The notes beneath the pieces were generated by a model. The model was not told where the DNA came from and searched no databases. It was given only the letters and a program-made list of their open reading frames with translations. A DNA stretch of 64,000 nucleotides from a virus. Location of the stretch: IMG/VR virus record IMGVR_UViG_3300023444_000001, positions 17,938 to 81,937 of that record; one strand, 5' to 3'. This document shows positions 7 to 24,773 of this stretch, in pieces (the stretch's first letter is position 1; each line of letters begins with the position of its first letter). Position numbers and translations under genes: made by a program.

Positions 7-3000
7 TCAGTCTTTGGAGTTGATATAATTCTTCCCTTCAACTCTATCACCAAAAACTTTTTTTAATTCTTTTTCCAATTTTGAATTTCGAACTCGAATA
101 ATTTTCACATCCTCAAAGTTTATTCCTCCCTCATGCACAAATTGAACTTCTTTCCGAAATACATTTGAAGCAATTTTCTTCCCTTTAACCTCCAAATTCC
201 CAGTTACCCCTTTATATAAATTTTCTACCCCAGAAAAAGTTTGCCCCTTAATTTTAAACAAAGTTTCCTTCTGAAAAAAGATATCTTTATCCAATACAAA
301 TTTGAACTCTCTATTTTTTCCGACAAATTTCGAGAAATCTAATTCTCCTCCTATCTTTCCCTCTTCTTCTAATGTAGTTGGAATCCTCTTAAACCATAAA
401 GCCTTCATTCCATCTTCACTTTTCAAATTCAAAATAATAGGCTTCAATTCTCTATCTATTGTCTCCACCATCTTTTCTCTTGGAACTGACTCAATATAAA
501 ACTTTTTCAAATTATCTAACATCTCCGACATGAATGTATCACCAATATCTTCCTGCTTTATAGGAATTAACTCCGAAAATCTCTTTGTAGCAAAAATCCT
601 ATTACGAGCCATAATATCTATTGGAGAATCAGAAGTCAAAATATAACTATAGACATCCCTATCCTGACCCAAACGAAAATTTCTCCCATTTCTCTGAATA
701 AATGTCTTAAAATTCTTCGGCAAATCAAGATGAATTGTAACTTTAGCCATTTGAACATTTATTCCTTCAGACTTTGCTGAAGTTAGAATCAAAAATTTCT
801 GCTCTGGAATTTCTGAAAACTTCTTGAGAATCTTTTGCACATCCATATTCTTTGTAGAACCTGTTAAAGCAACAGCCCTATCCTTCCCAAGAAAATTCCT
901 CAAATTCTTTGCTACTTCATTTGATTCTGTATGAATTATAATCTTATCATCGGGATGTTTCTTAGCAATTTTCAAAATTTCCTTATAAAAAGCATTATCT
1001 TTCCCTGAACCAGAACGCAAAACCTTCATTAAATCGTGCCGCCTATGTGTTTCTAATTGAACTAATTCTTTTGTTGCTCCCTTTCTAATCAACTCCTGCT
1101 TCTTAATTTCATACATTTTTTCCAAATTTCTATATTCCATTTTTTGAACTTTAGTCAACTTTACCTTTATTAACTGTTTATTTCTCATTTCAACAGGTAA
1201 AGCCTCATTAAAATAATCAATCAATCTGATCCCTCTTATTGGAGCCTTTGCAACAAATATTGAATCATCGAACAAACTATTAAATGTCTTAACCATCAAA
1301 GGCCGAGCAAAGTTATTCTCTGTTGTCAACCCACCAAAAACTCTTCCTCCAAATTTTGCCCCAGAAAACATATCGACAAATTCTCTCTTTGTCATTCCTG
1401 TTTTTCCGGGCTGTAACCATTCAATAGTATCCCACATCTGCCCAATATTATCCTTTATAGCCGTACCAGTAAGACCAACCTTATATTTAATCCTTTTTGA
1501 AACCAAATCTCTTAAAATCCTTGATTCTTTAGAATATGCTTCATAATCAAACACATCCCCAACAGGAGTTAAATCATGAATTTCATCTATAACAACCATA
1601 TCATACTTCATCCGTAATTCTTTAACCAATGAAGCCGCATCCTTATGTGTTATCACATCTATTTTATACTTACCAGGATTTTTCAACATTTTCAACTCTA
1701 TGTCTCTTTTCCCTGAAATCAATCTTCCCTTATATTTACTAAACTTTTTAATCTCACTAACCCAATTCATTTTTGTTCCTGATGGAACTACAACTAAAGC
1801 CCTTTTTACTTTTCCTGCTGAAATTAAATCTGAAATAGCAGAAATAGATGTCGGAGTTTTTCCAAATCCCACTCCAGCATTGAGTAAAACATTTTTCTGC
1901 TGAACAATAAATTCCTCTGCCGCCCTTTGAACTGGTTTCAAAGTTATACCTTCTTTAATACCCAAAATCTTTCTATCAAATACCCCTCCCTTCAAAACAA
2001 TATTATTTTTTATATCTTCAAACTCATTTTGCCAATTTTTAATTCTCTTCCATCGAATAGCATGAATATCAAGCCATTCTTCAAAATAAAATTTCCTTCT
2101 TTCCGGAAATCCTCTAACCCATTTAGGAATAACATAATAGGCTTTCCCAGTTTTAACATTCTTCCTGATATAAACATTCAAATACCTCATAGCCTTATTA
2201 AATTCCTTTGGAGTTCCTTGACTCCACTTCAATAACAATTCGGGAGAAGGCAAATTTTTTGCCATATCTGCACTTATACCCCAATCTATCAAAGTTTTAC
2301 TTCTTGAACGATAAGGCCAAATCCTATTAGTATAATTTATAAACTCTGATCCACCCAAACTATATGGATCACTCTTAACAAGAGCATCTCTAACAATAGC
2401 ATTTACTATCTCATCAGGAGGAATAAATTTTACAGGAATAAATCTTTCATCATCAATATCTAAAACATCAATTCCAATTTTTTTTAATTCATCTCTTGAA
2501 CCCACATAAGCAATTTCCTTAACCCCATCTCTTGCTTCCGTTATAGCCTCTGGAGTAAAAGATTTCAATGAACCTTTAACTCTAAAAAAGACTTTATGAT
2601 ATTTTTCTGGATTTATCTTAAACTGGTAAAATTTACCTATTTTTCCAAGTATTCCATCTTTTTTAACCTGCAAACCTAAAGTTTCTAATCTTCGCAATGC
2701 AGTTTCTCTTGTTTTTCCAAGTACAACAAAAACATCCTTTGGAGACATTAAAGCCAACCGAATCTGATCTACAGCATTCATACTACCCAGTATTCCACCT
2801 AATTCACTTTGTGCTTGTGAAAATAAACTATCAGCAATTACTCTTGAAGCATTTTTTCCTTTGAATCCAGCCTTTCTCATAGTCCGCAAAGTTGAATATC
2901 CATCATTAAGTAATCCATCAACACTCTTCAATCCACGCTTTGTATAAATTCCAATTCTTTGATGAGTAACCAACTTATCTAAAACCTCTAATAATTTTTT

Positions 3001-4332
3001 TCTGTCCACAGTTTTTGTACTTTGTTTTATTGCTTCAACAAGAACTTGACTTGCATTTTCAACTCCAAGCAAATTAAACTTTTCCCAAGTAAATGCTGGT
3101 TGCCCCAAAAGTTGAAAAGCAATTCCATTCATAGCATCAAAAGCACCTCTTTTGACCGGAAGAGAAAAAGCCGCATTTACAAAATTCTCTACCTCATAAT
3201 AATTACTATTTATAGCCTCCTTCAATTCACTCTCTGATTTCTTAAGAAGAACTTTTGCAAATGTTTTCATCCTACCCTTTCCCCCAACAGACTCCATTTT
3301 TGCAACTTCTCTAACCAAAGACCGAAATGTAGGCCCACTCATTTTATCTAATAAAGCAAGAGTCTCACCTGAAGCAAACCTTTTTGCTCGTTCAATAACA
3401 ATAGAAGGTAATCCTTTATGAACTAAATCTCTTGGAGAAAATTCTTGAGGAGATAATCCAGCCCTTTCAAAGGCTTCTCTTCTACGAGCCATAAGAGCCG
3501 TATAGACTGGACTTAATCCACATTGACAATATGGATGGGGAAATGTTGGGGCCTCATCAGTATAATATACCCCTCGAAGAGAAAGATTTCCAACAGAAAG
3601 ACCCTCTCCTTCAAGAGGTGTTGCATTAGCCAATTTTTCACAAATCTCTACTCCATGTTGATCCAAATGATTTGAAGACAAATCCCACTTAACAAGAGGA
3701 ACTCCCCTTTCTTTTGAAAAAAGAACAGTAGCCTCCTGATAAGCCCTTCCTGCTTCTGATCTAACTAATCTTTGTCCCCATTTTAATTCTGAAGCCCCAT
3801 AAGGAGACCTTCCCGGAATATTATAAGTCAATCTTCCTTTTAACTGTTGTCTAACAAAACTAATGCTTTTCCCCTTTTTAAGAACTGAATACCCAAAAGT
3901 TCTTATACGTTTATCCAAATAATTTAATCTATCTTCAATAGTTAATCCATTAAAGGGCTTAAAATATTGCATAAAAGCCCTTTTCTTAAAATCCTTAATT
4001 TCCTCCATCGAAATTGAAGATAATCCCATTTTTCTAAAAATTCTTTGCTGATGATAAAATGCTCTGTTAATAGATTCTGAAACTGCTTTATTTGTTTTAA
4101 CCTGAAGCCCAAACATCAATTCTTTTGTATTTTGTCGAAGTATTTCTCTTGAAAACTTTTCATCCTCTCGAAGTAAAAATCTCTCACCCTTAAATGAAGA
4201 TGTAACTGTATTTGCAAGATCAGTATATGCTCCATACAAATTATCTCCAATACGTTTACTTTTTCTTACATTTATATCTAACGCATGAACAAAACGCTTT
4301 CTCTGTATTTTCGTAGATAAATACTTAGGCAC
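7..4332 (-). CDS. MuF-like minor head protein fused to an SNF2-type helicase
   Basis: This 1441-residue protein joins two modules. The first 300 residues look like the Mu gpF minor head family: a basic helical start, then near residue 266 an HPYCQC motif typical of the family's C-terminal part. From about residue 810 it is an SF2/SNF2-type ATPase: Walker A NAGVGFGKT near 824, DEIH near 916, GLTGTA after it, and the arginine-finger motif QRNGRNFRLGQ near 1214. The middle (about 300-800) is helical and unrecognised. It overlaps the portal gene by 8 bases, the usual place for a MuF gene. MuF proteins alone are usually a few hundred residues, so this is a true fusion. By analogy with phage polyvalent proteins I infer that it sits in the head and may enter the cell with the DNA. 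The domain calls are firm; the injection role is inference. Confidence 0.85.
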   Translation of the reverse strand: MPKYLSTKIQRKRFVHALDINVRKSKRIGDNLYGAYTDLANTVTSSFKGERFLLREDEKFSREILRQNTKELMFGLQVKTNKAVSESINRAFYHQQRIFRKMGLSSISMEEIKDFKKRAFMQYFKPFNGLTIEDRLNYLDKRIRTFGYSVLKKGKSISFVRQQLKGRLTYNIPGRSPYGASELKWGQRLVRSEAGRAYQEATVLFSKERGVPLVKWDLSSNHLDQHGVEICEKLANATPLEGEGLSVGNLSLRGVYYTDEAPTFPHPYCQCGLSPVYTALMARRREAFERAGLSPQEFSPRDLVHKGLPSIVIERAKRFASGETLALLDKMSGPTFRSLVREVAKMESVGGKGRMKTFAKVLLKKSESELKEAINSNYYEVENFVNAAFSLPVKRGAFDAMNGIAFQLLGQPAFTWEKFNLLGVENASQVLVEAIKQSTKTVDRKKLLEVLDKLVTHQRIGIYTKRGLKSVDGLLNDGYSTLRTMRKAGFKGKNASRVIADSLFSQAQSELGGILGSMNAVDQIRLALMSPKDVFVVLGKTRETALRRLETLGLQVKKDGILGKIGKFYQFKINPEKYHKVFFRVKGSLKSFTPEAITEARDGVKEIAYVGSRDELKKIGIDVLDIDDERFIPVKFIPPDEIVNAIVRDALVKSDPYSLGGSEFINYTNRIWPYRSRSKTLIDWGISADMAKNLPSPELLLKWSQGTPKEFNKAMRYLNVYIRKNVKTGKAYYVIPKWVRGFPERRKFYFEEWLDIHAIRWKRIKNWQNEFEDIKNNIVLKGGVFDRKILGIKEGITLKPVQRAAEEFIVQQKNVLLNAGVGFGKTPTSISAISDLISAGKVKRALVVVPSGTKMNWVSEIKKFSKYKGRLISGKRDIELKMLKNPGKYKIDVITHKDAASLVKELRMKYDMVVIDEIHDLTPVGDVFDYEAYSKESRILRDLVSKRIKYKVGLTGTAIKDNIGQMWDTIEWLQPGKTGMTKREFVDMFSGAKFGGRVFGGLTTENNFARPLMVKTFNSLFDDSIFVAKAPIRGIRLIDYFNEALPVEMRNKQLIKVKLTKVQKMEYRNLEKMYEIKKQELIRKGATKELVQLETHRRHDLMKVLRSGSGKDNAFYKEILKIAKKHPDDKIIIHTESNEVAKNLRNFLGKDRAVALTGSTKNMDVQKILKKFSEIPEQKFLILTSAKSEGINVQMAKVTIHLDLPKNFKTFIQRNGRNFRLGQDRDVYSYILTSDSPIDIMARNRIFATKRFSELIPIKQEDIGDTFMSEMLDNLKKFYIESVPREKMVETIDRELKPIILNLKSEDGMKALWFKRIPTTLEEEGKIGGELDFSKFVGKNREFKFVLDKDIFFQKETLFKIKGQTFSGVENLYKGVTGNLEVKGKKIASNVFRKEVQFVHEGGINFEDVKIIRVRNSKLEKELKKVFGDRVEGKNYINSKD

Positions 4333-8740: not shown

Positions 8741-8989
8741 TTACAATATCTTTTTTCTCCTGTCAACCTTAACAACACTATATTTTCCAGATTCTATCCA
8801 TTTACGTGCTAATTCTCTATCTTCTTCCCTCCCACAATCCAAATTTCTATCTGGATACATCAGCATATCTTCCAAACAATGAGCCACTGTACCAGTATAT
8901 ATCATTCCAGGGCGTCTCCCATTTCCCCAATTAGAAATAATTGCCAACAACTCATAAACTCTTTCTCTTAACAAAGTATTTGAACCCAT
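8741..8989 (-). CDS. hypothetical protein, 82 aa
   Basis: I start it at ATG 8989 (MGSNTLLRERVYEL) because a GGAG sits 8 bases upstream and this ATG overlaps the stop of the resolvase gene as TAATG; the frame stays open further upstream but without a better site. It contains two Cys and ends in a basic KVDRRKK tail. Length is 82 residues. No family recognised. It is the last gene before a terminator. Confidence 0.65.
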   Translation of the reverse strand: MGSNTLLRERVYELLAIISNWGNGRRPGMIYTGTVAHCLEDMLMYPDRNLDCGREEDRELARKWIESGKYSVVKVDRRKKIL

Positions 8990-9890: not shown

Positions 9891-10100
9891 TTAATGAAAC
9901 ACATAATATGCCCAAGCATATCCCAGCCCCACGCAGAGCATCCCCCACAATATCCACGGAGTAGCCCGGTCGATCATCTCGGTGATCTTGCCAGGCTGAT
10001 ATGGTGGCACATCCCGCCAATCGCCCTGGCGGACATGATCTCTAAGGTGCCAGAGTCTCAGTGCATCCCAATCTTGTCTACTACGCTCTTGTGGGTTCAT
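9891..10100 (-). CDS. small protein with one membrane segment, 69 aa
   Basis: A 69-residue protein: about 45 polar residues, then a hydrophobic segment (TPWILWGMLCVGLGYAWAYY) at the C-terminus, so probably tail-anchored in the inner membrane. GGAGGGAAAGCC precedes the ATG, which overlaps the stop of the upstream gene. Base use is clearly GC-rich compared with flanking genes; first or last member of the GC-rich island. Function unknown. Confidence 0.6.
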   Translation of the reverse strand: MNPQERSRQDWDALRLWHLRDHVRQGDWRDVPPYQPGKITEMIDRATPWILWGMLCVGLGYAWAYYVFH

Positions 10101-10387
10101 GGCTTTCCCTCCTCTATCACCCGGTTGACTGCTTCCAGGTCCGCAATCTTACGCTCCAATTCGCATCGCTGTTCGATGGCCTTCTTTAGTTCCGCCATTG
10201 CCCAATCGCGCTTGCGCTCTGTATTCTGCAGTTGTACTACAGCCTCGATATACGCCCGTCTGAGGTCCAGCACTTGTTGATCTTGGCGCAAGACCTCTAC
10301 CACGACTATGGCACGGAAGAGGTACAATATGCCTATCAGGATTCCACTGAAGGCAACTGAGCCTATGACAATTTCGTACCAATGCAC
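10097..10387 (-). CDS. membrane-anchored coiled-coil protein, 96 aa
   Basis: I start it at GTG 10387 because GAGGAGG lies 7 bases upstream; the open frame continues further up but with no ribosome site. The product has an N-terminal membrane segment (IVIGSVAFSGILIGILYLF) followed by a long coiled coil rich in Gln, Glu, Arg and Leu. This layout resembles an i-spanin (Rz), though I see no lysis genes nearby, so this is only a possibility. It belongs to the GC-rich island and overlaps the next gene as ATGA. Confidence 0.6.
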   Translation of the reverse strand: MHWYEIVIGSVAFSGILIGILYLFRAIVVVEVLRQDQQVLDLRRAYIEAVVQLQNTERKRDWAMAELKKAIEQRCELERKIADLEAVNRVIEEGKP

Positions 10388-10462
10388 TTTTAGCCTCCTC
10401 TCTTTATATGGCCCCCGGTGGGGTGATCGACTGCTGGCCTGCAAGTCTCCACTCTGCACCCT

Positions 10463-10594
10463 CTATACCGGGGGCTCATGGTCATTTATCCTGTCCCGGA
10501 GGGCCTGTATCCTGCGCTCGATGTGTCCCTTGACACCCTCCAGTTCCTCAATGGTCTGCTGGTAGCAGATTATCGCGACTTTGTTCGTGTCCAT
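10463..10594 (-). CDS. small hypothetical protein, 43 aa
   Basis: A 43-codon gene (MDTNKVAIICYQQTIEELEG, then a charged helix ending INDHEPPV) with a very good ribosome site, GGAGGTGAAAC before the ATG. Predicted to be mostly helical. Its stop lies next to one arm of a 9-bp inverted repeat (gcccccggt at 10411-10419, accgggggc at 10467-10475) that spans the gap to the next gene. GC-rich island. Function unknown. Confidence 0.55.
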   Translation of the reverse strand: MDTNKVAIICYQQTIEELEGVKGHIERRIQALRDRINDHEPPV

Positions 10595-10617
10595 GTTTCA
10601 CCTCCATTTGGTTAACA

Positions 10618-10839
10618 TTATCGTTTCTGATAGTATTCAAAGACCATAACTATCATCTGCGTTAATGTCTCGTTGCCTTCTATTAACCCCTTTATTGTCC
10701 GTCCGTCTCTGCCGAAGTTTACAAGCATAGTGGCCCGTGCCTCCAGCAACTCTCGCTTCATCGGCAGAATATCATCCTCCTCAAGCGCTTTGACCAGTTC
10801 CCATATCTTACATCGGTTTAATCTCATTGCCCCCCCCAT
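10618..10839 (-). CDS. hypothetical protein, 73 aa
   Basis: A helical 73-residue protein (EEDDILPMKRELLEARATML, then FGRDGRTIKGLIEG). The start is uncertain: ATG 10839 has no ribosome site, while ATG 10827 (MRLNRCKIWELV) follows a run of eight G that could serve. GC-rich island. No family recognised. Confidence 0.55.
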   Translation of the reverse strand: MGGAMRLNRCKIWELVKALEEDDILPMKRELLEARATMLVNFGRDGRTIKGLIEGNETLTQMIVMVFEYYQKR

Positions 10840-10841
10840 AT

Positions 10842-11048
10842 CTAATTAGATGTGCGTCTTAATGCCTGATAGAAAACGTCATTCATCAGTAATTTTTTTC
10901 TGGTATCGCTGATAAACTCAGAGCCGCCCAGACAAAAATCAGGATGCCTTGAGTAGAACTCCTCAAATTGTCTAAGATACGCATCAGCGGCCTGCATCTG
11001 TTCTGCTGTCCCGTAAGGCATTGTTAATATTTTTTTCGCCCTTTTCAT
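10842..11048 (-). CDS. hypothetical protein, 68 aa
   Basis: A 68-residue protein, MKRAKKILTMPYGTAEQMQ, with an AGGAGGGAAAG site directly before the ATG. Predicted mainly helical, with an LRQFEEFYSRHPDFCLGG centre. GC-rich island, same operon. No family recognised. Confidence 0.55.
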   Translation of the reverse strand: MKRAKKILTMPYGTAEQMQAADAYLRQFEEFYSRHPDFCLGGSEFISDTRKKLLMNDVFYQALRRTSN

Positions 11049-11082
11049 CTTTCCCTCCTTTTCAGGTTGCGGCCAGTGGCCG

Positions 11083-11394
11083 TTAGTCCTTTATCAGGTT
11101 TATGACGTTGTCTTTCGTTATCTCTGCTATGACCGCTGGGGGCAAATTCCAAAAGTTTATTACTATAGGCTTCCTGGTGTCTGTAATGATTGCCAGGTCC
11201 CCACCACGGCCGGGGCAGATAGTCACATGGTCATTGCGACGTTCTGCCTGCCGCGCCGCCTCTTCGAGTATGGCCTTTGCGTCGCCAGTGCGCATGATAT
11301 TATCGCCTGCATCGCTTGCCAGGTGATACGCATGCCGGAACACCGGGCCGTGAAGGGTTAATTGTCTGGTTTCGGAAATTTCAATGTAAAGCAT
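11083..11394 (-). CDS. hypothetical protein, 103 aa
   Basis: Starts at ATG 11394 (MLYIEISETRQLTL) because AGGAGGTGTGAC directly precedes it and the upstream gene stops just before that site. The same frame is open for about 45 more codons upstream and reads surprisingly protein-like (VWQAYKQRYGDDCTEADY), so a longer or formerly longer protein is possible. The mature part has mixed strands and ends NVINLIKD. GC-rich island. No family recognised. Confidence 0.55.
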   Translation of the reverse strand: MLYIEISETRQLTLHGPVFRHAYHLASDAGDNIMRTGDAKAILEEAARQAERRNDHVTICPGRGGDLAIITDTRKPIVINFWNLPPAVIAEITKDNVINLIKD

Positions 11395-11405
11395 GTCACA
11401 CCTCC

Positions 11406-11600
11406 TCAATCCTGCCAGCCCTCGAAGGGCCCGCATGTAATCTGCCTCTGTGCAGTCGTCACCATAGCGCTGTTTGTATGCCTGCCAGACCACCAATGTT
11501 CGTCTGGTTTTTCTCCATGTAATGACTTATTGGCGGGGCAAGGAATCTTTTCCAATTGTGCACATGAGGGAATATGTTTAATTTGTTCAGATTTTTTCAT
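11406..11600 (-). CDS. hypothetical protein, 64 aa
   Basis: Chosen start ATG 11600 (MKKSEQIKHIPSCAQ) follows GGAGGGATGAG. The first 20 codons are AT-rich like the phage and the rest is GC-rich, so the upstream border of the island falls inside this gene. The C-terminal half (GEKPDEHWWSGRHTNSAMV) competes with a more protein-like reading in another frame, so the gene may be a chimera made by insertion or a frameshifted remnant. Three Cys. Function unknown. Confidence 0.4.
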   Translation of the reverse strand: MKKSEQIKHIPSCAQLEKIPCPANKSLHGEKPDEHWWSGRHTNSAMVTTAQRQITCGPFEGWQD

Positions 11601-11639
11601 CTCATCCCTCCTCAATTAAATCAAAACCAAATTTTTTCT

Positions 11640-11894
11640 TTAATCCCATCCCCAACAACCACAATAATATAAATCTGTCTCTTTATCCGGTCGATAAGAG
11701 AAAAATGGTAATCCAATCCTTGAATCTGTAACATTATCACATTGACAGCATTCAGCCTTTCTTCCTTCCAAAGAAGGCATTTCAGCAATTTCTATGGCTT
11801 CCGGAACTATACCAAAACAACTTGCACAAACCGGATTTCCTTTTTCATCAACAGCAGTTGCTGTATGTCCACATTTCATCATAACTATAGACAT
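11640..11894 (-). CDS. small zinc-binding-like protein, 84 aa
   Basis: An 84-residue protein with KCGH and CASCFG early, CCQCDN in the middle and YYCGCWGWD at the end, so one or two zinc sites are likely. GGAGGGAAAA before the ATG. AT-rich again, so outside the GC island. Cysteine-rich small proteins of this kind are common in phage accessory regions; function unknown. Confidence 0.6.
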   Translation of the reverse strand: MSIVMMKCGHTATAVDEKGNPVCASCFGIVPEAIEIAEMPSLEGRKAECCQCDNVTDSRIGLPFFSYRPDKETDLYYCGCWGWD

Positions 11895-11946
11895 TTTTCC
11901 CTCCTTTAGTAAAAATAATACCTTTCCTCACAAAAATCAAATTTTC

Positions 11947-12462
11947 TTATTTCAGATATGAATATGAATACACATCCTTCAAAGTCCGAAATTTATCTCC
12001 TTTTCCCATTCCATATCCAACAAGAAAGCCATCCTCCTCTCTTACTTTGAATCCGACATATTTCACCCTATCTATGCCCTTATCCCTTTCAAACAAAACA
12101 CATCCCTCAATAGACCTCGGATTTTCCTTCTCTAAAGACCTTTTTACTTCTTCAAAACTTTTTCCTGTGTCTAAAATATCATCTATAATCAAAACATTTC
12201 TATCTTTCACTTTCTTCAAATCAAACATGAAGTTTACTTTCAAATTTTCCGAAGGATTTAATTCTTCTCCATAAGAAAAAACTCCAGCAAATTGAATTTC
12301 CGGTGATAAACCAGAATATCGAATTAAATCCCATCCAAAAGGAAATCCTCCTTTCAATACAATAAGAAAGAAAGGATTCTTTCCCCAATAATCAAAATTT
12401 ATTCTCCGAGATATTTCATAAACCTTTCCTTTTATTTCCCTTTCCTTAAATATTTTCTTCAT
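11947..12462 (-). CDS. phosphoribosyltransferase, hypoxanthine type-like
   Basis: A 171-residue PRT-fold enzyme. The PRPP-binding motif NVLIIDDILDTGKSFEEV lies near residues 88-105, and ILVLKGGFPFGWDL-like text near 35 matches the PPi-loop region of hypoxanthine/guanine phosphoribosyltransferases. Length and order of motifs are typical of that group (about 170-180 residues). It would convert a free purine base and PRPP to the nucleotide. In this phage it could feed purine salvage, or handle a modified purine, but the substrate cannot be read from sequence. A terminator lies just upstream (12509-12555). Confidence 0.8.
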   Translation of the reverse strand: MKKIFKEREIKGKVYEISRRINFDYWGKNPFFLIVLKGGFPFGWDLIRYSGLSPEIQFAGVFSYGEELNPSENLKVNFMFDLKKVKDRNVLIIDDILDTGKSFEEVKRSLEKENPRSIEGCVLFERDKGIDRVKYVGFKVREEDGFLVGYGMGKGDKFRTLKDVYSYSYLK

Positions 12463-12508
12463 TTTTTACCTCCTTTAGTAAACTGAACTTTTCTAATCTC
12501 ATTCTTTT

Positions 12509-12555
12509 TTAAGAAAAAATTAGACCGGACTTTTCAAAATCCAGTCTTTTTTTAA
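12509..12555 (-). terminator. rho-independent terminator, possibly bidirectional
   Basis: Arms AGACTGGA and TCCGGTCT (12522-12529 and 12540-12547, with G-U pairing) enclose a 10-base loop; the minus-strand transcript then runs into AATTTTTT, and the plus strand also has a T run. It lies about 80 bases downstream of the solitary CRISPR repeat and would end that transcript. Confidence 0.8.
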
Positions 12556-12635
12556 GAAGAGTATCCATGACCCTCTTTTGTCTATCCATTTAAGGGGGGG
12601 GGGTATTATCTTTCTTTCCTTTCCCTCTATAGGAT

Positions 12636-12667
12636 GTTTCAATCCACGCCCCCGCGCGGGGGGCGAC
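12636..12667 (-). ncRNA. solitary type I-C CRISPR repeat unit, candidate RNA anti-CRISPR
   Basis: A single 32-base sequence that, read on the minus strand, begins GTCGCCCCCCGCGC and ends GGGGGCGTGGATTGAAAC. It has the 7-bp CGCCCCC/GGGGGCG stem, the invariant GTCGC start and the TGGATTGAAAC 3-prime handle of type I-C repeats. No second repeat lies within a spacer distance on either side, and no cas genes are seen. It sits in the gap between two genes with a terminator downstream. Phage solitary repeat units that mimic crRNA and trap Cas proteins are known; this is that arrangement. I see no strong promoter directly upstream, so it may be cut from the operon transcript. Confidence 0.8.
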
Positions 12668-12700
12668 TGTATACACCTCAAGTGTTTTAACTCCTTTGAA

Positions 12701-12955
12701 TTACATCTTCATTTCCGACATCCTCCTTTCATATTCAGAATCAAAAAATTTCGTCTTATTTCCACATTCAGAACAAATTCCTTCAAACTCTGTTTCCTCT
12801 TCATCTATTGTTCTCCAACATTTCATTTCATCAGACAATTTTACTGGAGGTTCTCCACAACAAATAGACCTCCAATCTGGCTCAAACTCTTCTTCTCTTT
12901 CACAAAATTTCTCTGCTTTACAACGACAACAATTCATTGTACACATCTCATCCAT
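12701..12955 (-). CDS. small cysteine-rich protein, 84 aa
   Basis: An 84-residue acidic protein with CCRC near the start, SICCGEPP in the middle and ICSECGNKT near residue 60; at least one zinc ribbon is likely. It is the gene just upstream of the solitary CRISPR repeat and probably shares its transcript. Function unknown; its neighbourhood makes it worth testing as an anti-CRISPR or its regulator, but nothing in the sequence itself shows that. Confidence 0.6.
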   Translation of the reverse strand: MDEMCTMNCCRCKAEKFCEREEEFEPDWRSICCGEPPVKLSDEMKCWRTIDEEETEFEGICSECGNKTKFFDSEYERRMSEMKM

Positions 12956-12961
12956 TTTTTC

Positions 12962-13132
12962 TCACTTATCTTTCAAAAGTGTTACGTGAATAACCTCAAC
13001 CCACTTTCTACACCTTGCACACTTTCCAAATACAAGATCAGTTGGATATTCGAGATCAGAGGTCAAAGTTCCATAAATTGGCCAATGACCACAAATAGTC
13101 TTCCAATCCTTATCAATTCTAATTCTTTTCAT
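12962..13132 (-). CDS. small zinc-binding-like protein, 56 aa
   Basis: Starts at ATG 13132 (MKRIRIDKDWKTICGHW), preceded by GGAGGCACAAA; the longer open frame upstream is the shadow of the neighbouring gene. A CGH and a later CARCRKW suggest a zinc site. It overlaps the preceding gene by 14 bases. Function unknown. Confidence 0.6.
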   Translation of the reverse strand: MKRIRIDKDWKTICGHWPIYGTLTSDLEYPTDLVFGKCARCRKWVEVIHVTLLKDK

Positions 13133-13427
13133 TTTGTGCCTCCAATTTTCGATACCATTCTTCAGGATACCCAGGATACTCCATTCTACGAAGAGTGGAG
13201 CGAATCCCAAGGTCTTTAGCCAACTTATCACGAAGATCAAACCAAGGATTGTAATCCACATTATCACCTTGTTCTTCACTCCAGCACTCTGGGAAAACCA
13301 TCCCTGCTAAAGCGTGTGAATATCTCTCGTTCCTATCTAATCTTGATACTGCATCTGTTATAGCAACCAAGATTTCCTCACGACCATTGAGTTTTACAAG
13401 TGCTGATTTTATTGTCGATATACGCAT
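13119..13427 (-). CDS. hypothetical protein, 102 aa (paralogue of 14225-14524)
   Basis: Start ATG 13427 (MRISTIKSALVKLNGREEIL) follows GGGAGGTTTGTA. It is clearly homologous along its whole length to the protein at 14225-14524: both share GREEIL, RYSHALAGMV, PECWS, GIRSTLRRMEYPGYPEEWY. The two arose by a tandem duplication about 1 kb apart. No known family; predicted helical. The first 50 bases lie within the end of the upstream gene. Confidence 0.65.
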   Translation of the reverse strand: MRISTIKSALVKLNGREEILVAITDAVSRLDRNERYSHALAGMVFPECWSEEQGDNVDYNPWFDLRDKLAKDLGIRSTLRRMEYPGYPEEWYRKLEAQNEKN

Positions 13428-13590
13428 TACAAACCTCCCTTTCATTATACCAATCTTCTTCTCCATCATCCCACCGAATTTTTACTCTTCCTTTATGAGA
13501 ATCCAAAGCAATTACTTCTGCATATCGTACTTTATCCCCTTCTGGAATTTCCAAATTCTGTTTGAGATAAAACATTGTTGATTGTCTCAT
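13378..13590 (-). CDS. hypothetical protein, 70 aa
   Basis: Start ATG 13590 (MRQSTMFYLKQNLEIPEGD) follows GGGAGGTTACA and lies just downstream of a strong promoter. The sequence VRYAEVIALDSHKGRVKIRWDDGEEDWYNE looks like a small beta barrel (SH3 or Tudor-like). Its last 17 codons overlap the next gene by 50 bases, which is unusual here, so a shorter original C-terminus may have been lost. Confidence 0.55.
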   Translation of the reverse strand: MRQSTMFYLKQNLEIPEGDKVRYAEVIALDSHKGRVKIRWDDGEEDWYNEREVCNAYIDNKISTCKTQWS

Positions 13591-14224: not shown

Positions 14225-14524
14225 TCAATCGGTGGCATCCAACTTTTGGTACCATTCTTCAGGATAACCCGGATATTCCATTCTGCGAAGAGTGGAACGA
14301 ATCCCATATTCTTTTGCCAACTTATGCCGGAGATCAAACCAAGGAGTGTAGTCAACCCAATCTCCCTGTTCATCAGACCAACACTCCGGGAGAACCATCC
14401 CTGCCAAGGCATGAGAATATCTCTCACCTCGATTTAATTTTGTCAGAGCATCTGTTATCGCCGCAAGAATCTCCTCCCGACCACCCAATTCCGCCAACAC
14501 ACCTTTTATTGTCCTAACTCGCAT
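14225..14524 (-). CDS. hypothetical protein, 99 aa (paralogue of 13119-13427)
   Basis: MRVRTIKGVLAELGGREEIL, homologous end to end to the 102-aa protein at 13119-13427. The best conserved blocks are the ERYSHALAGMV segment and the C-terminal GIRSTLRRMEYPGYPEEWY. AGGAGGTTGC precedes the ATG. Function unknown, and no domain recognised. A terminator follows it. Confidence 0.65.
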   Translation of the reverse strand: MRVRTIKGVLAELGGREEILAAITDALTKLNRGERYSHALAGMVLPECWSDEQGDWVDYTPWFDLRHKLAKEYGIRSTLRRMEYPGYPEEWYQKLDATD

Positions 14525-16808: not shown

Positions 16809-18239
16809 TTATTTCCCAAAAATTTCCCGCAAAATTCCTTTTCCTTTGGCTCGTATAAAAACCTCATCCCTATTATCTCCCATATTCTTCAATGTCTGAG
16901 CCATATCCATCAACGTTCTTAATTGATCGGTAACATTTGGATCAAGAACTCCTCCATCAGATTTTTCTATGTGAACAGCATGAAAAGTTCTCTGAGCCTC
17001 TATCTCAATAACTGTCTTTACAAGATTTAACAAATCAGAAGAACCTTCTATTTTGAAAGTAAAATCATATCCACAAAGACTTCCTTCTTTATATCGGGGA
17101 CAATTTTCATCCAAATAACACGTATTACAGGAAATCTTTTCAACTATCCTTTCATCTAAAACAGGGACTTTTGGCTTTTTTTCAATAACTTCACTTTTTA
17201 CTTCAACAATTTCATTGTCTCTTTTCATACTTGCTTTCACCCCCTTATTTCCTAACTTCTTGGCTTCTTTTATATCTTCCGGACTTAACCAATAAGCATT
17301 TTTACATTGATATTTATACCAATCAGTCCACTTTTTCCACATGAAAGCATTGATGATATTACAAGGTCTTGCCAATCCATTCTTAAATCCTTCCCAATCA
17401 AACTTGTCCCCAATAGTTTCTTCTATTTCTTCCTTATACTTTTTTTCTATTTTGCTTTTGAATTTCTTTCTCAATATATCGGACTTTTTTCTCGTATCAG
17501 CAATTATCTCAAAATTTTCCATTCGTCCATGTGAAGAGAAAAATATTGCTCCAAATCTTCCACCAGAAATCCAACTTGTAGAATCTACAGTAAAAAATGG
17601 TCTTCTTACTATATCTTTTTCACTACTTAAACCAAACCCATGAAGCAATATTTTCTTTTTTCTTGCAAATCTAAAATACCGATGTAAAGTCAAATCACTC
17701 CGTACCCAACCTGACCCTGTTCCAATGTAATCATAGGCATCAAACCATCCTAAATCTTCTATTTCTTTATTTGACTCACCTTGCAAAACAGGTATCAGAT
17801 GTATTCCCATGTCTTTCGCCTTATTTAACCACTTTACTCTCTCTGCTTTTCCAAAATCCTCAGAAGTAAAATCTAATTCAGCGAACGCTTGAACAGATTC
17901 TCTCATCTTAAAGGCAAAATCTAAATATTCATTATAATACTGCTCTATATCAAGACTTTTCCCTTTTGCCCCTCCAGATTTTTCTAAATCTATATTCAAC
18001 GTATATCCACCTGAATCAATAAATACAAAATCAAAGTCTCTCAAAAATTCTTCTTTTAACTGTTCTATAGACTTTTTCCTTATCAACTTTCTTAAATAGT
18101 AAAAAGACAATAATACATTTCTAATTCCTATCATTCTCAATATACTTCTAAACTCGTTTGTCTCCGCACCAGCAAAAAGCAAACAAGTATTGTATATCTT
18201 TGGATAACATCGAAATTCCATGCCATTAAATTCTTGCAT
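16809..18239 (-). CDS. dpdA: DpdA-like DNA-guanine transglycosylase with Cys-rich tail
   Basis: A 476-residue TIM-barrel protein of the tRNA-guanine transglycosylase superfamily, closest in plan to phage DpdA, which swaps a guanine in DNA for preQ0 or a derivative. Visible motifs: FIDSGGYTLN near residue 75 (base-binding loop), LIPVLQG near 150, TGSGWVRSD and LLHGFGLSS, and VDSTSWISGGRFG near 225. From about 370 there is a second module with CNTCYLDENCPRYKEG and a further Cys, then conserved helices; this resembles a free-standing phage Cys-rich domain and may bind metal or DNA. With queC, queD, queE and folE upstream the context is decisive. A bacterial TGT is less likely because the tRNA-enzyme zinc site is not seen in place. 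Confidence 0.85.
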   Translation of the reverse strand: MQEFNGMEFRCYPKIYNTCLLFAGAETNEFRSILRMIGIRNVLLSFYYLRKLIRKKSIEQLKEEFLRDFDFVFIDSGGYTLNIDLEKSGGAKGKSLDIEQYYNEYLDFAFKMRESVQAFAELDFTSEDFGKAERVKWLNKAKDMGIHLIPVLQGESNKEIEDLGWFDAYDYIGTGSGWVRSDLTLHRYFRFARKKKILLHGFGLSSEKDIVRRPFFTVDSTSWISGGRFGAIFFSSHGRMENFEIIADTRKKSDILRKKFKSKIEKKYKEEIEETIGDKFDWEGFKNGLARPCNIINAFMWKKWTDWYKYQCKNAYWLSPEDIKEAKKLGNKGVKASMKRDNEIVEVKSEVIEKKPKVPVLDERIVEKISCNTCYLDENCPRYKEGSLCGYDFTFKIEGSSDLLNLVKTVIEIEAQRTFHAVHIEKSDGGVLDPNVTDQLRTLMDMAQTLKNMGDNRDEVFIRAKGKGILREIFGK

Positions 18240-18255
18240 TTTTATCCCTTGAAAT

Positions 18256-18789
18256 TTAATACCTTATTATCAAAAACTTCTCTGGGGTAACCTCATAATG
18301 ATCCAAATATGCTTGTGAAGAATAGCAATTCCTTTTAACCCAAATTTTCTTGGTCAGCATATCTCCAGACAGATTTACAGTCAAATCATACTTTTCCGAT
18401 CCATAAGCAAAAGTCCATAATGATCCAGAATATGCACCATTCACTGCCACATTCATTACTGCTCTATAAACTGCTTGATGATGATTTCCATTATATTCTC
18501 CATATTCTCCATGCGAAACAACTAATTCTGGTAAAATATCTTGTATTTTACTTGAAACAAGACTCATAATTTTTTCTATATCACAAAGAGAAGATTGTTT
18601 CAATTCCCCATACAAAGACTTAAATCCTAAAATTTCAGAGGCTTTATTAAATTCTGATTTTCTAATAGAACAATCTTTCGTATTAAGACCTAAAACATAT
18701 ACTTCAGAAAAAGAAGCAAAAACTTGAATCAATCCTCCAGCAAAAATTGTCTCGTCATCAAGATGGGCCACTATAATCAAAACCTTCAT
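18256..18789 (-). CDS. PIG-L/LmbE family deacetylase
   Basis: A 177-residue zinc-dependent N-deacetylase. The start VLIIVAHLDDETIFAGG carries the AHPDDE-type metal motif (here AHLDDE), and SHGEYGEYNGNHHQAVYRAV near 115 supplies the HxxH metal ligands. The family removes acetyl groups from N-acetyl sugars such as GlcNAc-linked substrates. In this cluster it could act on a sugar added by one of the neighbouring glycosyltransferases. It overlaps the methyltransferase upstream by 32 bases and lies 16 bases before dpdA. Family firm, substrate unknown. Confidence 0.85.
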   Translation of the reverse strand: MKVLIIVAHLDDETIFAGGLIQVFASFSEVYVLGLNTKDCSIRKSEFNKASEILGFKSLYGELKQSSLCDIEKIMSLVSSKIQDILPELVVSHGEYGEYNGNHHQAVYRAVMNVAVNGAYSGSLWTFAYGSEKYDLTVNLSGDMLTKKIWVKRNCYSSQAYLDHYEVTPEKFLIIRY

Positions 18790-19375
18790 TTTCTTTTTCC
18801 AATATTTTGCAAGAAAATATCAATCCACGAGGAAAATATTCATACAAAACATCCTCCCGTATAACATATCCAAAAAGATAAAAACTTTCCTCAAAATGAA
18901 ATCTATCTTCATGGGCTAAAACTATAAATTGAGGTTTCATTAAGACTATCTTCTTTATTCCTTCCTCATATTTATCTTCAAAAAAATACAAGACTTCCGA
19001 CAAAATCACTGTTGTCCAATATCCTATTTCATCCTCTATATTATCTTTCAAAATATCTTTTTTTTCAAATTCAATAAGCCCTTCAACCCAATATTTTTCC
19101 TTTGCTTCTTCAATCCATTTATCAACTTTATCCCATCCTTTGACATACCTTCCCGGAAGCAATGAAGTTAAATTTCCCTGACAACAACCAATCTCCAGCG
19201 TATTACCTTCAAAAATCTCTTTTACTCGCCTTAATAATCTATTCAACCAAATGGCCCGTAAAGAAAAGAGATTGAATCCTTCTGACCCAACCACACTCAT
19301 ATCCCAGGCACTATCTTTAGTAATTTGATCTGAGTAATCAATATTAGTCCAAAGATTATTCTTTATGTCTTTCAT
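18758..19375 (-). CDS. SAM-dependent methyltransferase (NodS-like)
   Basis: A 205-residue class I methyltransferase. Motif I is NTLEIGCCQGNLTSLLPG near residue 58; VKGWDKVDKWIEEAKEKY is the acidic second strand; VILSEVLYFFED is the motif IV region. The pattern resembles NodS-type sugar N-methyltransferases, which methylate a de-N-acetylated amino sugar; the PIG-L deacetylase just downstream makes that role attractive here. It overlaps genes on both sides. The fold is firm, the sugar substrate is inference. Confidence 0.8.
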   Translation of the reverse strand: MKDIKNNLWTNIDYSDQITKDSAWDMSVVGSEGFNLFSLRAIWLNRLLRRVKEIFEGNTLEIGCCQGNLTSLLPGRYVKGWDKVDKWIEEAKEKYWVEGLIEFEKKDILKDNIEDEIGYWTTVILSEVLYFFEDKYEEGIKKIVLMKPQFIVLAHEDRFHFEESFYLFGYVIREDVLYEYFPRGLIFSCKILEKENEGFDYSGPS

Positions 19376-20172
19376 ATCGAATATACAACCTTAAATCTAC
19401 GCCGTTCTATTTCTGAACAAATCAATATTTGTCTTCCATCATCAGAGCATAAAATTCGATCTTCTCCAAATACTCCAAAACCTTTTTTCACAGTAAAACG
19501 TTCTCCTCTTTTACAAAAGCATCCACAAACCCATCCATCCTCTAATATTTCTACTTGTTCTCCAACTCGAAGAAAACATTCTTGTGGTTTAATATAATAT
19601 CCTATTCCACACTGATGATTGCTTTCATCAATTTCAATTCCATTATATTTGGCTTTTATTTCCCTCCACAAAACCGGAACCTCAAATTCACTTTTATTTC
19701 CACAGTCAAAAATATTGTGAAACGCAATTATTCCTTCAGATCTAACTAAAGGAGTATATAATTCATAATCTCTTCTTGCACAAACTATATCATGATTTCC
19801 ATCAATAAAAAGAGCATCAACAAAATCTTCTCCAACTATTTTCTTAATCATACCAGATAAAATAACCGGAGAAGACTCTCTTATTGAATCTAAATTCAAA
19901 TAAATCGGCCAATATTTTGGATCGTTCCCAATCCATTTTGCTTTACATATATCAATATCAATACTAAACACCCAATCACAAACATGACAAAAAGCCCAAG
20001 CAGTATATCCTTGACTTGCTCCTATTTCAACTAAAACCTTTGGCTCTATTCCTTTCAAAATATTCAAAAATACAAATAATTCTCTTGAATTTTGTTCCCC
20101 TCCTAAACTTTCAGAACGTTCTGCTATTTTCCACAATTCTTTCATATTCCATGATTTAACCATTACATCCAC
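19372..20172 (-). CDS. SAM-dependent methyltransferase, CmcI/cephalosporin hydroxylase-like
   Basis: A 266-residue protein. Residues 45-65 contain VLVEIGASQGYTAWAFCHVC (SAM motif I), then SIDIDICKAKW, and DALFIDGNHDIVCARRDYELY with FHNIFDCG, the signature region of methyltransferases related to the CmcI and rhamnosyl O-methyltransferase group. About 50 extra residues at the C-terminus form a small strand-rich add-on. It overlaps the next genes by 4 and 10 bases. Sugar or base methylation is likely; the acceptor is unknown. Confidence 0.75.
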   Translation of the reverse strand: MDVMVKSWNMKELWKIAERSESLGGEQNSRELFVFLNILKGIEPKVLVEIGASQGYTAWAFCHVCDWVFSIDIDICKAKWIGNDPKYWPIYLNLDSIRESSPVILSGMIKKIVGEDFVDALFIDGNHDIVCARRDYELYTPLVRSEGIIAFHNIFDCGNKSEFEVPVLWREIKAKYNGIEIDESNHQCGIGYYIKPQECFLRVGEQVEILEDGWVCGCFCKRGERFTVKKGFGVFGEDRILCSDDGRQILICSEIERRRFKVVYSI

Positions 20173-21161
20173 CTTCCAAGCAACCTTGTATATCCTTCTT
20201 TCATAACAGCAAAAGAATAATTCTCTCTAATAAATTCTCTATTTACATCAATAAATCCATCCCAACTTTTAACTGCTGTTTCAAGGCACTGATATACTGT
20301 TTCATCATCAGCAAACAGTACTTTCTTTCCCTTAATATGAAAATAATCTGGAATATTTGGCAAAACTAAAGCCCTTCCTGAAGCCATAGCCTCTAAAGCC
20401 GGATATGAAAAAGTATCAGTCAACGAATAATTCCAATATACCTTCGATTCCATAAATGCTTGAGCCATCTCATTTCTATTCAAACTAAACCGTGTCTCAA
20501 CGTTAGACAAATTCAATGCTTCAACCTTCTTAGCCTCTTCTTCCCAAGGAAAAACAAGCAAAAACTTTATTTTCTTCAAATCTCTAATTATACTTAATAC
20601 TTCATCTATTCTTCTAATTAGATGCCAATGCCCAGTCCATAAAACATCAAATTTTATGGGTCTCTCCCTGTCTACGCCAAAAGTTTGGAGGTCAATACAC
20701 AATGGAATTACAACTAATTCTTTTGGAATAGCATAAGGAAAGACCCGAATTATCCTTTCAATACATTCCTTTGTTGGAACAACCATTAACGGTAATTCAA
20801 ACATGAATTGTCTCATTTCACTAATTGCTTTCTTATCCCATAAATGGGGAATATAATGAGCATAATAAATCGTTTTATCATACCATAAAGACAAAAACCT
20901 ATATCCCAAATTTCCATAAAAGACTACATCTGGACATATTTTCTCTAATTTCTGCAATACAGACCAATAATTCACCAAAGCATTTTTTTCATATTCCCAT
21001 TTTGAATCCTTATTTTCCAACAAATTTGTCTTAATCTCAGATTTCACAAGAGAAAATTCTATACCTAACTCCTCACAAATTCTCTTTATCTGAAGGATAA
21101 ATGTATGATGACCTCCAGTCTTTTCTGCTTGCATTTTCTGCGTAACATAAACTACTTTCAT
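20163..21161 (-). CDS. family 4 glycosyltransferase
   Basis: A 332-residue GT-B enzyme. N-terminal VVYVTQKMQAEKTGGHHTFI is the acceptor domain; the C-terminal domain shows FDVLWTGHWHLIRRIDE, FPWEEEAKKV and the retaining GT4 signature YPALEAMASGRALVLPN near 265-280. Enzymes of this family glycosylate many acceptors, including queuosine in tRNA, which makes a 7-deazaguanine acceptor conceivable here. Its gene lies between queC and the methyltransferases. The family is firm; the acceptor is inference. Confidence 0.85.
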   Translation of the reverse strand: MKVVYVTQKMQAEKTGGHHTFILQIKRICEELGIEFSLVKSEIKTNLLENKDSKWEYEKNALVNYWSVLQKLEKICPDVVFYGNLGYRFLSLWYDKTIYYAHYIPHLWDKKAISEMRQFMFELPLMVVPTKECIERIIRVFPYAIPKELVVIPLCIDLQTFGVDRERPIKFDVLWTGHWHLIRRIDEVLSIIRDLKKIKFLLVFPWEEEAKKVEALNLSNVETRFSLNRNEMAQAFMESKVYWNYSLTDTFSYPALEAMASGRALVLPNIPDYFHIKGKKVLFADDETVYQCLETAVKSWDGFIDVNREFIRENYSFAVMKEGYTRLLGRWM

Positions 21162-21173
21162 ACTTCAGTCTCC

Positions 21174-21875
21174 TCAAGCAATAATTTTTTTCACACTTAA
21201 AATATCATTGCATCTCTCTTTATCATAATATCCTATTTTAGCCCTTTTAACATATTCATCAAATAAAAAACTTTCTGCAGGCCACATTGCAAAATTATTT
21301 CTCAACTCATCTTCTGAAAAAAATCCATAAAGACCAAAAAATCTCCTTAAACAGGCTGGACAATTTCCACAATGTCCAAAATTTCCATTATAACATGACA
21401 CAGTGCTCAACAATACATCTTTAGGATACTTACTTTTTAAGTACCAACTTATTATCCTTCTTTTAGTCCAAAAGAGAAAAGGAGAAAAAATTTCTATTTT
21501 TTTCTCCTTTCCGAGTTTTGTCAAACATTCAGATAAAATCTTATTTGCTTGTTTTCCTTTATCCTCAACTTTATCACCACAAATACCAATAAGCCCAATT
21601 TTATTTCCGTAATTGGCCGCTATTGTACAAAGAATTATATTTCTCCACGGAATATAAAAATCCTTTCTTTCCCAATTTCTACCATAATTTTTAGCCGAGT
21701 CATCAATCAATAAATCCATCCCAACTTTCTCTGCTATCATTTTAACAGCAAACTTTTCCTTTTCTATATATTTGCTTCCAATATCAACAAATAAAACTGA
21801 GGGTTTGTCAAGATACCACCATGCACAATATGAATCTACTCCCCCACTAAAAAGCAAAATCAAATCTTGTGGCAT
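21174..21875 (-). CDS. queC: 7-cyano-7-deazaguanine (preQ0) synthase
   Basis: A 233-residue ATP-dependent enzyme that converts CDG to preQ0. The pyrophosphatase loop LLFSGGVDSYCAWW is at the start, and the zinc cluster CYNGNFGHCGNCPACLRR near 175-192 matches QueC. Length is normal. No glutamine amidotransferase domain is fused, so it is not the Gat-QueC form. It sits in the cluster with folE, queD, queE and dpdA, all on one strand. Confidence 0.93.
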   Translation of the reverse strand: MPQDLILLFSGGVDSYCAWWYLDKPSVLFVDIGSKYIEKEKFAVKMIAEKVGMDLLIDDSAKNYGRNWERKDFYIPWRNIILCTIAANYGNKIGLIGICGDKVEDKGKQANKILSECLTKLGKEKKIEIFSPFLFWTKRRIISWYLKSKYPKDVLLSTVSCYNGNFGHCGNCPACLRRFFGLYGFFSEDELRNNFAMWPAESFLFDEYVKRAKIGYYDKERCNDILSVKKIIA

Positions 21876-21949
21876 ACAATATTATCCTTATCTTTGATTC
21901 TTCAAAACCATCTTTGTATTCATAAAAGTAAAATTTCTCTTAATTTATC

Positions 21950-22867
21950 CTATCCTCTATAATCATGAGTTAATACCTTATTCTTTGGTTCTGACCATTC
22001 TAATTGAACCTTGTGATTGTAATAACATCCACTACAATTTTTTACCGATTCTATCCATTGTTGTTTGTATTTTTTCAAATCCCAGGAAAAAATATCAAAA
22101 GAAAACTGACCAAATACATCGTTACACGCAAGAATTTTTCCATCGCAATCTATTATCAAATAATCCGGCTTGGAACAATGCCAAGATAAATTCCAATATT
22201 TGGGCAAACCCTCAAAATAATCGCGAATATTGTGGATTTTAAGCCCCTCATCAATTAACTTAAGTCCTATCTTTCTTATCTTTTTCGCTTGCTCAAAATT
22301 GATAGCAAGATCATTTTTGAACCTAAATTCTCCATCTCCACTGTGAACTATTCCTGCTATAATCCAAATTCCCTTTGAATCAAAAAATCTTACTATATCT
22401 TCAAATTCTAAATAATTTTCCTTCGTCAATATAACATTCGCTGTTCTATCCCCTATATGAGTATTTTTAACCAATGCTCTTTTCCCCATTACAGCCTTAT
22501 ACAAATCTGCCTTTTCTTTTCTTAAACTTAAAATGGGTTTACCATCATTTCTCTCTTTTAATGTATCCACAGAACAAGTTAAACTCTTCAAATTATCAGG
22601 AACAATTCTTGTTCCATTTGTAATAACAGTATATGGAATATCAAGATTATTAACTTCATCTACAATTTCTCTAAAATCCTTTCTTAAAAGAGGCTCTCCG
22701 CCAAACAAAACCAAGATTTCCGGATCAATTTTCTTGATGATTCTCAAAACATCAAAAATTTTATCTTTTGATAATTCATTCTTTATTCCCCTTCTTGGAA
22801 CTCTACAATATCTACACCGGATATTGCATCTTCGAGTCAAATATAGACAAACTTCCCTTATCATCAT
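21950..22867 (-). CDS. radical SAM enzyme with SPASM-like tail
   Basis: A 305-residue radical SAM protein. The cluster motif CNIRCRYC lies near residues 14-21, LFGGEPLL near 54-61 is the SAM-binding glycine motif, and a C-terminal set of Cys (CSKPDYLIIDCDGKILAC, then NCSGCYYNH) suggests an auxiliary iron-sulfur cluster of the SPASM or twitch kind. It is distinct from QueE, which is also present. It lies just downstream of a glycosyltransferase and upstream of queC, so it may act on the modified base or its sugar. The substrate is unknown. Confidence 0.8.
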   Translation of the reverse strand: MMIREVCLYLTRRCNIRCRYCRVPRRGIKNELSKDKIFDVLRIIKKIDPEILVLFGGEPLLRKDFREIVDEVNNLDIPYTVITNGTRIVPDNLKSLTCSVDTLKERNDGKPILSLRKEKADLYKAVMGKRALVKNTHIGDRTANVILTKENYLEFEDIVRFFDSKGIWIIAGIVHSGDGEFRFKNDLAINFEQAKKIRKIGLKLIDEGLKIHNIRDYFEGLPKYWNLSWHCSKPDYLIIDCDGKILACNDVFGQFSFDIFSWDLKKYKQQWIESVKNCSGCYYNHKVQLEWSEPKNKVLTHDYRG

Positions 22868-23012
22868 TCCAAACCAAAATTAAGAGTTGAACACCTGCCT
22901 TACTATCCTTATAATTCTTAAAATAAGCCGCACAGTAAGGTTTTCTTTTCAAAAAGGTATATTGAGTAGAAGAATAATAAAAACCTTCCTCAGACGTTTG
23001 AAACAAGGTCAT
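22812..23012 (-). CDS. questionable small ORF over the 100-base element, 66 aa
   Basis: MTLFQTSEEGFYYSSTQYTF, preceded by GGGAG at 9 bases and overlapping the upstream stop as ATGA, so it could be translated. It shares RKP and AYFKN with the frame over the 16706-16805 element, but it runs 56 bases into the radical SAM gene and the other two copies of the element carry stops. I give it low weight. Confidence 0.25.
   Translation of the reverse strand: MTLFQTSEEGFYYSSTQYTFLKRKPYCAAYFKNYKDSKAGVQLLILVWNDDKGSLSIFDSKMQYPV
22913..23012 (-). repeat. 100-base intergenic element, copy 2 of 4
   Basis: Overlaps the stop codon of the glycosyltransferase (ATGA) and ends GGCTTATTTTAAGAATT at 22913; 46 bases then lead to the radical SAM start. 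The 3-prime half is nearly the same as copy 1 (AAGAAAACCT, then GGCTTATTTTAAGAATT), and both could form a short AAG/CTT, CC/GG hairpin. Confidence 0.55.
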
Positions 23013-23959: not shown

Positions 23960-23962
23960 CTT

Positions 23963-24538: not shown

Positions 24539-24773
24539 CTATTTTCTTCAAAATCCCCAAAACTGCTGAACTATCTCTAAAAACCATTCCTGTAAAAGTC
24601 TTAGGACAATCGTCTGGTGATCCAAATTTACAAAAAGGTTCAAAATTATTCACTTCAACTATTGACCTTTGACACAAACAATTTCTAAAAGAATTAACTC
24701 TTAAAATTTGAACTGGAATTTTTTCAAAATTCAAAAGTAAAATATCAACCTCTGAACTTTTATTCTCATTCAT
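24519..24773 (-). CDS. hypothetical Cys-containing protein, 84 aa
   Basis: A small protein between queE and folE that overlaps both. It has NCLCQRSIVEV and PFCKFGSPDDCPKTF, so a metal site is possible, with a helical C-terminal end. I do not recognise it. Its place inside the pathway genes makes a role in the modified-base pathway plausible. Confidence 0.6.
   Translation of the reverse strand: MNENKSSEVDILLLNFEKIPVQILRVNSFRNCLCQRSIVEVNNFEPFCKFGSPDDCPKTFTGMVFRDSSAVLGILKKIDEHIKD

Follow-up and report, generated by a model that had tools for sequence, protein, structure and literature searches.

Solitary CRISPR repeats carried by phages have been shown experimentally to act as RNA anti-CRISPRs (Racrs), one of them against type I-C systems (PMC10651486). 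According to the available text of that study, RacrIC1 is located in a Bifidobacterium pseudocatenulatum prophage, 11 nt downstream of acrIC5 in a bicistronic arrangement. RacrIF1, from a Thiocystis violascens prophage, is an intergenic type I-F repeat that is expected to trap the Cas proteins of both processing and backbone, and the RNA bound in this case is the upstream product without a 5′ handle. Viral mini-CRISPR arrays (Medvedeva et al. 2019, as summarized in PMC11656645) carry host-type repeats in viruses without cas genes; in the account given there, each has two or more repeats, with spacers directed at related viruses by sequence match. According to the accessible sections of two further papers on type I-C, cleavage of the repeat by Cas5d (Cas5c) produces an 11-nt 5′ handle, with the enzyme remaining attached to the 3′ hairpin (PMC5965380), and Cascade assembly starts with Cas5c and Cas7 nucleating at the 5′ handle (PMC7684278). 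The contacts that Cas7 makes to the backbone in I-C Cascade are nonspecific, and a Cas6 cap is absent; a Cascade structure and expression plasmids exist for the D. vulgaris I-C system (PMC7684278).

The window analyzed here, a stretch of 64,000 nt from an 81,937-base IMG/VR virus record, contains a single copy of the 32-nt repeat GTCGCCCCCCGCGCGGGGGCGTGGATTGAAAC on the minus strand (Table 1). We consider it a candidate Racr against type I-C, of a kind that is already known. A solitary unit that shares a transcript with a small ORF or is transcribed directly behind it, is ended by a terminator, and acts as an RNA decoy against a host I-C system is the reading that we hold to be fairly probable. 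The unit resembles RacrIC1 in being a solitary I-C repeat of a phage that directly follows a small ORF and is probably part of the transcript of that ORF. However, RacrIC1 is located 11 nt past an acrIC5 homologue and its inhibition of I-C has been shown, whereas the ORF next to the window repeat is 33 nt away and unrecognized. Like RacrIF1, the unit is a solitary phage repeat, in this case only possibly intergenic, with an expected function as a trap for processing and backbone Cas proteins, yet the window unit is of type I-C. Since Cas5c of this subtype both cuts the repeat and holds the handle, a correct handle would be expected on the downstream product, unlike the RNA bound in the case of RacrIF1. 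With the mini-arrays, the locus shares a host-type repeat in a virus without recognized cas genes, but it contains one repeat instead of at least two, and the start of its tail has no match in IMG/VR. The unit may already be among the 2,103 viral units that are counted in the available text of PMC10651486.

Table 1. Features at and around the solitary repeat (window coordinates)
Feature	Position	Strand	Details
Solitary type I-C CRISPR repeat, 32 nt	12636-12667	-	Sequence, exact-match scan
Repeat stem arms, 7 bp, CGCCCCC/GGGGGCG	12665-12659 + 12653-12647	-	
Repeat loop, 5 nt	12658-12654	-	
Handle-like 3′ part of repeat, 11 nt, TGGATTGAAAC	12646-12636	-	Handle length from PMC5965380 (available text)
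Tail between repeat and terminator, 88 nt	12548-12635	-	No second repeat in it
Run of ten C, 32 nt past repeat	12594-12603	-	Longest G/C run of window
Intrinsic terminator	12514-12547	-	Stem 12547-12522, 11 bp, 4 G-C, loop 4, T6 at 12519-12514
84-aa acidic, Cys-rich ORF	12701-12955	-	Stop codon 33 nt before repeat
Phosphoribosyltransferase-domain ORF	11947-12462	-	PF00156, E 1.7e-20; starts 173 nt past repeat
53-codon TTG-started frame through repeat and terminator stem	12520-12681	-	ORF list

Identity of the repeat and the virus that carries it

The original prediction had described one 32-base repeat with an I-C signature, and this was borne out by its position, its stem, its TGGATTGAAAC end, and its identity to known repeats. 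An exact-match scan of species genomes, in line with the comparison to type I-C arrays that had been proposed, showed that 32 of the 32 letters match natural I-C repeats in at least 120 genome stretches. This identity is far above chance. Among 23 genomes that were drawn from the loci with the exact repeat and searched for cas8c, 18 scored above the curated cut-off; some of the five misses may be due to metagenome-assembled genomes being incomplete. Judged by its letters, the window repeat is a true type I-C CRISPR repeat. Rfam gave zero families at their cut-off anywhere in the window.

The repeat was also found inside the I-C arrays of plasmids pDVUL01 and pDEVAL01 of Nitratidesulfovibrio (Desulfovibrio) vulgaris, which adjoin cas5c-cas8c-cas7c-cas4-cas1c-cas2. 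Copies identical to the window repeat account for 1 of the 45 repeats in DP4 and 2 of the 28 in RCH1, and the majority repeats (41/45 and 25/28, respectively) are one loop base away from it. These arrays thus contain the same 32-nt repeat as the window; however, they belong to a complete host system with 45 and 28 repeats, whereas the window has one.

A solitary repeat unit in the sense of SRUFinder, as defined in the accessible part of PMC10651486, has at least 90% identity and coverage and a bit score of at least 41.1, is intergenic, and is not accompanied by another repeat, complete or truncated, in the surrounding 100 bp. In our own blastn-short comparison, the window repeat scored 63.9 bits with 100% identity over 32 nt, and our own searches revealed no such second repeat, although a weak 9-of-11 local match is present at +62. 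The claim that no second repeat is present was confirmed for the entire record of 81,937 bases, in which a search with up to 3 mismatches returned this copy alone. The absence of cas genes, which had likewise been predicted, holds for Cas1 (PF01867) and Cas5d (PF09704), the two families searched in the virus record, neither of which had a match. A PADLOC match of the ORF at 11083-11496 to Cas1 (E 0.0064) was rejected as a chance match because PF01867 has no match in the record. This ORF shows atypical codon use and lies in an island of 43 to 50% GC with weak GC skew (window positions of about 10000 to 12000) within a genome of mostly 28 to 40% GC. If the repeat served as a site for integration into host CRISPR arrays, the virus would be expected to encode an integrase; its possibly incomplete record contains no match to the tyrosine integrase and resolvase families PF00589 and PF00239. 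Taken together, the absence of Cas1, Cas5d, integrase, and resolvase matches from this possibly incomplete record argues against a CRISPR system of the phage and equally against the repeat being used by an integrase.

A search of 50,697 phage records for DNA-level relatives of bases 1 to 25000 returned none. Only 6 relatives of the terminase were detected in IMG/VR, at 38 to 40% identity, and the repeat was absent from the stretches of these relatives that were compared. A protein-level search yielded 10 distant named phages, and a close relative by which the conservation of the repeat unit could be judged was not found among these sets. Among named phages, the 13 matching records displayed no near-full-length repeat match above 84% identity. 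The genome stretches with the exact repeat have a GC content of at least 42% (113 measured), compared to about 34% for the virus record. None of 1,429 spacers, mostly from arrays with the window repeat, and none of 71 D. vulgaris spacers targets the phage; the longest spacer matches to the record, among the matches listed, comprised 15 exact nt or 17 of 18.

Two other regions of the window were recorded. Queuosine-type genes on the minus strand at 16809-25483 (queuine tRNA-ribosyltransferase-like, QueC, GTP cyclohydrolase I, and radical SAM ORFs) suggest 7-deazaguanine modification of phage DNA or tRNA. A 1,441-aa ORF (7-4332, minus strand) with DEAD and Helicase_C domains in its second half is located near a terminase-like ORF.

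Neighboring frames, transcript ends, and the downstream sequence

The 84-aa ORF upstream of the repeat had no match in Pfam, PHROGs, or PADLOC and no relative in IMG/VR. Its fold prediction was unusable (pLDDT 43) and too poor for a structure search. The idea that this neighbor is an anti-CRISPR protein was dropped for want of a family match, and no known acr or cas neighbors were recognized with Pfam, PHROGs, and PADLOC among the proteins given. Further upstream, the minus-strand ORFs 13119-13469 and 14225-14524 are paralogues (76% identical over 99 aa) without a Pfam or PADLOC match.

No sigma-70-like promoter above shuffle level was found in the region from 12400 to 13000. A lone 9-of-12 promoter-like site in this region has its -10 end 269 nt upstream of the repeat; the Racr candidates of PMC10651486 were chosen for a predicted promoter at most 250 bp upstream, and for the window repeat none was found within that distance. 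Since no promoter stands out and the repeat lies 33 nt past the 84-aa ORF, we infer co-transcription of the two, which we regard as likely.

The repeat is placed between the 84-aa ORF and the phosphoribosyltransferase ORF, yet it is also inside the 53-codon frame that starts with TTG. The repeat could thus be a coding artefact, that is, a part of a real 53-aa gene whose open frame is preceded by GGAG 9 nt before the TTG. However, the codon score of this frame is near zero both with and without the repeat (0.017 per codon, in comparison to 0.169 for the 84-aa ORF and 0.224 for the phosphoribosyltransferase; 2 of the 10 other ORFs scored were below it), and its stop codon falls at the end of the terminator stem. 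Type I-C arrays that are read through give rise to spurious database proteins. The matches of the frame, among those listed, are loci with arrays of the window repeat, as expected from arrays being read through. The frame is therefore probably no gene, and an origin of the repeat as coding sequence appears highly improbable.

The original prediction had placed a terminator about 80 bases downstream on the same strand; such a terminator is present, with an 11-bp stem and T6, but at a distance of 88 nt. The mean pair probability of its stem was 0.94 to 0.96 in five transcript models. At the same stringency, the 64 kb contain 5 terminator-like sites on the minus strand and 0 on the plus strand, and the site behind the repeat has the most G-C pairs among the five; the stringency of this strand-wide count differs from those of the promoter/terminator scan and of the comparison of solitary-repeat groups. 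The predicted compact RNA unit is half supported, since the terminator defines a 3′ end while the 5′ end is not defined. Folding of the shortest transcript model resulted in a repeat hairpin with pair probabilities of 0.82 to 0.84 for 6 of the 7 pairs. With upstream sequence added, the longer models had a pair probability of only about 0.5 for the stem in this register, and part of the handle was paired.

The run of ten C that had been noted after the repeat was located as listed in Table 1. It allows for a dying mini-array, which would consist of the repeat, a spacer of about 30 nt, and a second repeat that has decayed, leaving the ten-C run and a TGGATAGACAAA stretch as its trace. The run is unusual for this genome, and its distance of 32 nt is near the expected C-run of a second repeat, given that the 1,429 spacers are mostly 33 to 35 nt long. 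Moreover, truncated second repeats at 34 nt were observed for 2 of the 64 solitary viral copies described below (L203 and one of the two copies of L167). However, when the repeat was locally aligned to the 100 nt that follow it, the score was no better than chance, being reached by 642 of 1,985 random windows and 309 of 2,000 shuffles, and no 14-nt repeat end with up to 3 mismatches was detected in the 150 nt upstream or the 168 nt downstream. We therefore regard a dying mini-array as improbable; a decayed second repeat as the source of the ten-C run is possible but unproven.

The downstream sequence could also be used as a minimal guide. In this case, the first ~34 nt of the tail would serve as a spacer for an I-C Cascade that the phage borrows from its host, with the aim of either cleaving a competing phage or plasmid or repressing genes of the host, for example cas genes. 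Repression of cas genes is a known activity of CreR-type RNAs. Repeat and handle are intact at the locus. In addition, a Cascade-bound I-C crRNA without the 3′ stem-loop is described in the available text of PMC7684278, and phage mini-arrays against rivals are known (PMC11656645, in the part available). Against this stands that IMG/VR contains no match to the first 25 nt of the tail, even though three positions were left free in the search, and that no second repeat follows, which makes a guide or a mini-array less likely. We consider a minimal guide unlikely.

A proposed RNA decoy against type I-C

The reading as an RNA anti-CRISPR, as put forward in the original prediction, is favored by the exact solitary repeat, the lack of a cas1 or cas5d match, the terminator, and the solitary state of 64 of 151 viral copies. 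It is weakened by the fact that no promoter of the unit's own was found, that the 1,429 and 71 spacers miss the phage, and that the measured genome stretches with the exact repeat are well above the virus record in GC content. The unrecognized neighbors, the loose tie of solitary viral repeats to terminators, and the half-formed stem in longer transcript models also count against it. In the mechanism that we propose, host Cas5c would presumably bind the repeat RNA and cut it 11 nt before its end. Downstream of the cut, the product would carry the correct 5′ handle followed by the 88-nt tail that ends in the terminator hairpin, and the filaments that Cas5c and Cas7 would build on it would be of no use and possibly too long. 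On the upstream product, one Cas5c would remain bound to the 3′ hairpin. Either product would draw Cas5c and Cas7 away from crRNAs that target the phage.

A more specific form of the RNA decoy is possible but doubtful: an I-C Racr of reversed polarity, in which the handle and the uncapped 88-nt tail would provide a correct start for a Cas7 filament of up to ~14 subunits (88 nt at 6 nt each, compared to 7 subunits normally). Such a polarity would be particular to I-C because the 3′ end is not capped by Cas6 in this subtype, and one RNA would then drain the Cas7 of two complexes. If the decoy reading is true, a further virus, of an unplaced lineage, answers CRISPR with RNA. As the repeat fits the structurally known Cascade of D. 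vulgaris, the decoy mechanism is directly testable in this I-C system, including the means by which an RNA decoy blocks a subtype that lacks Cas6 and the side of the cleavage site from which it acts.

Solitary type I-C repeats in other viral contigs

A search of IMG/VR with a degenerate I-C pattern returned 87 viral stretches with 151 pattern copies. A neighboring copy was present for 77 of these, 10 were too near an end, and 64 were solitary, among them L004, which has the same 32 letters as the window repeat. Terminators, orientation, flanks, and duplications were analyzed with 81 of the 87 stretches, which contain 58 solitary copies. After deduplication of these first 58 to 53 copies, no flanking position carried more than 0.23 bits, and a search for a leader or tail common to the other solitary repeats found none. 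Anything common to the solitary copies thus resides in the repeat, and the repeat alone appears to be shared by the units, as expected if it were the acting part. Terminators follow 10 of the 58 copies, compared to a mean of 5.0 at random positions. Since they are only somewhat more common than at random, the terminator in the window is a feature of this copy and not of the group. Start sites just downstream of the solitary repeats (18/53, with a random mean of 13.6) were not convincing. With a crude ORF caller, 32 solitary copies lay outside ORFs; 19 of these were between ORFs of the same sense, 8 between antisense ORFs, and 5 in a mixed setting.

One contig calls for caution with solitary-repeat counts in metagenome contigs. 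In L153 (IMGVR_UViG_3300032053_000217), the solitary I-C repeat (8764-8795, minus strand) lies within a transposase-like frame, which we take to be IS3-like. The same 34-nt sequence is present on both sides of this repeat, and its first copy is preceded by TTC, the I-C PAM according to the available text of PMC8406640. This arrangement looks like recombination between spacer and protospacer or like an assembly walk through an array. The window copy, which is also from an IMG/VR record, could similarly be an inert passenger or assembly product, namely, a functionless repeat that arrived by recombination or through a mis-joined metagenome path. In contrast to L153, it has no flanking duplication (the longest word shared by its flanks is 6 nt), and it is located between ORFs and ahead of a good terminator. 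Such an origin is therefore quite unlikely for the window repeat.

Short duplications were observed at further solitary repeats: L155, L169, and L188 have direct repeats of 7 to 9 nt at most 3 nt from both ends. Including L153, such end duplications were found for 4 of the 53 copies, compared to a mean of 0.16 and a maximum of 2 in 400 draws of random nearby positions, which hints at insertion of some solitary units with a short target duplication. Some viral contigs (that of L137 and L139, that of L148 and L184, and L167) contain the same I-C repeat two or three times at scattered positions, separated by hundreds to thousands of bases. In L162 and L198, the 40 nt that precede the solitary repeat are almost identical, but the sequences after it differ.
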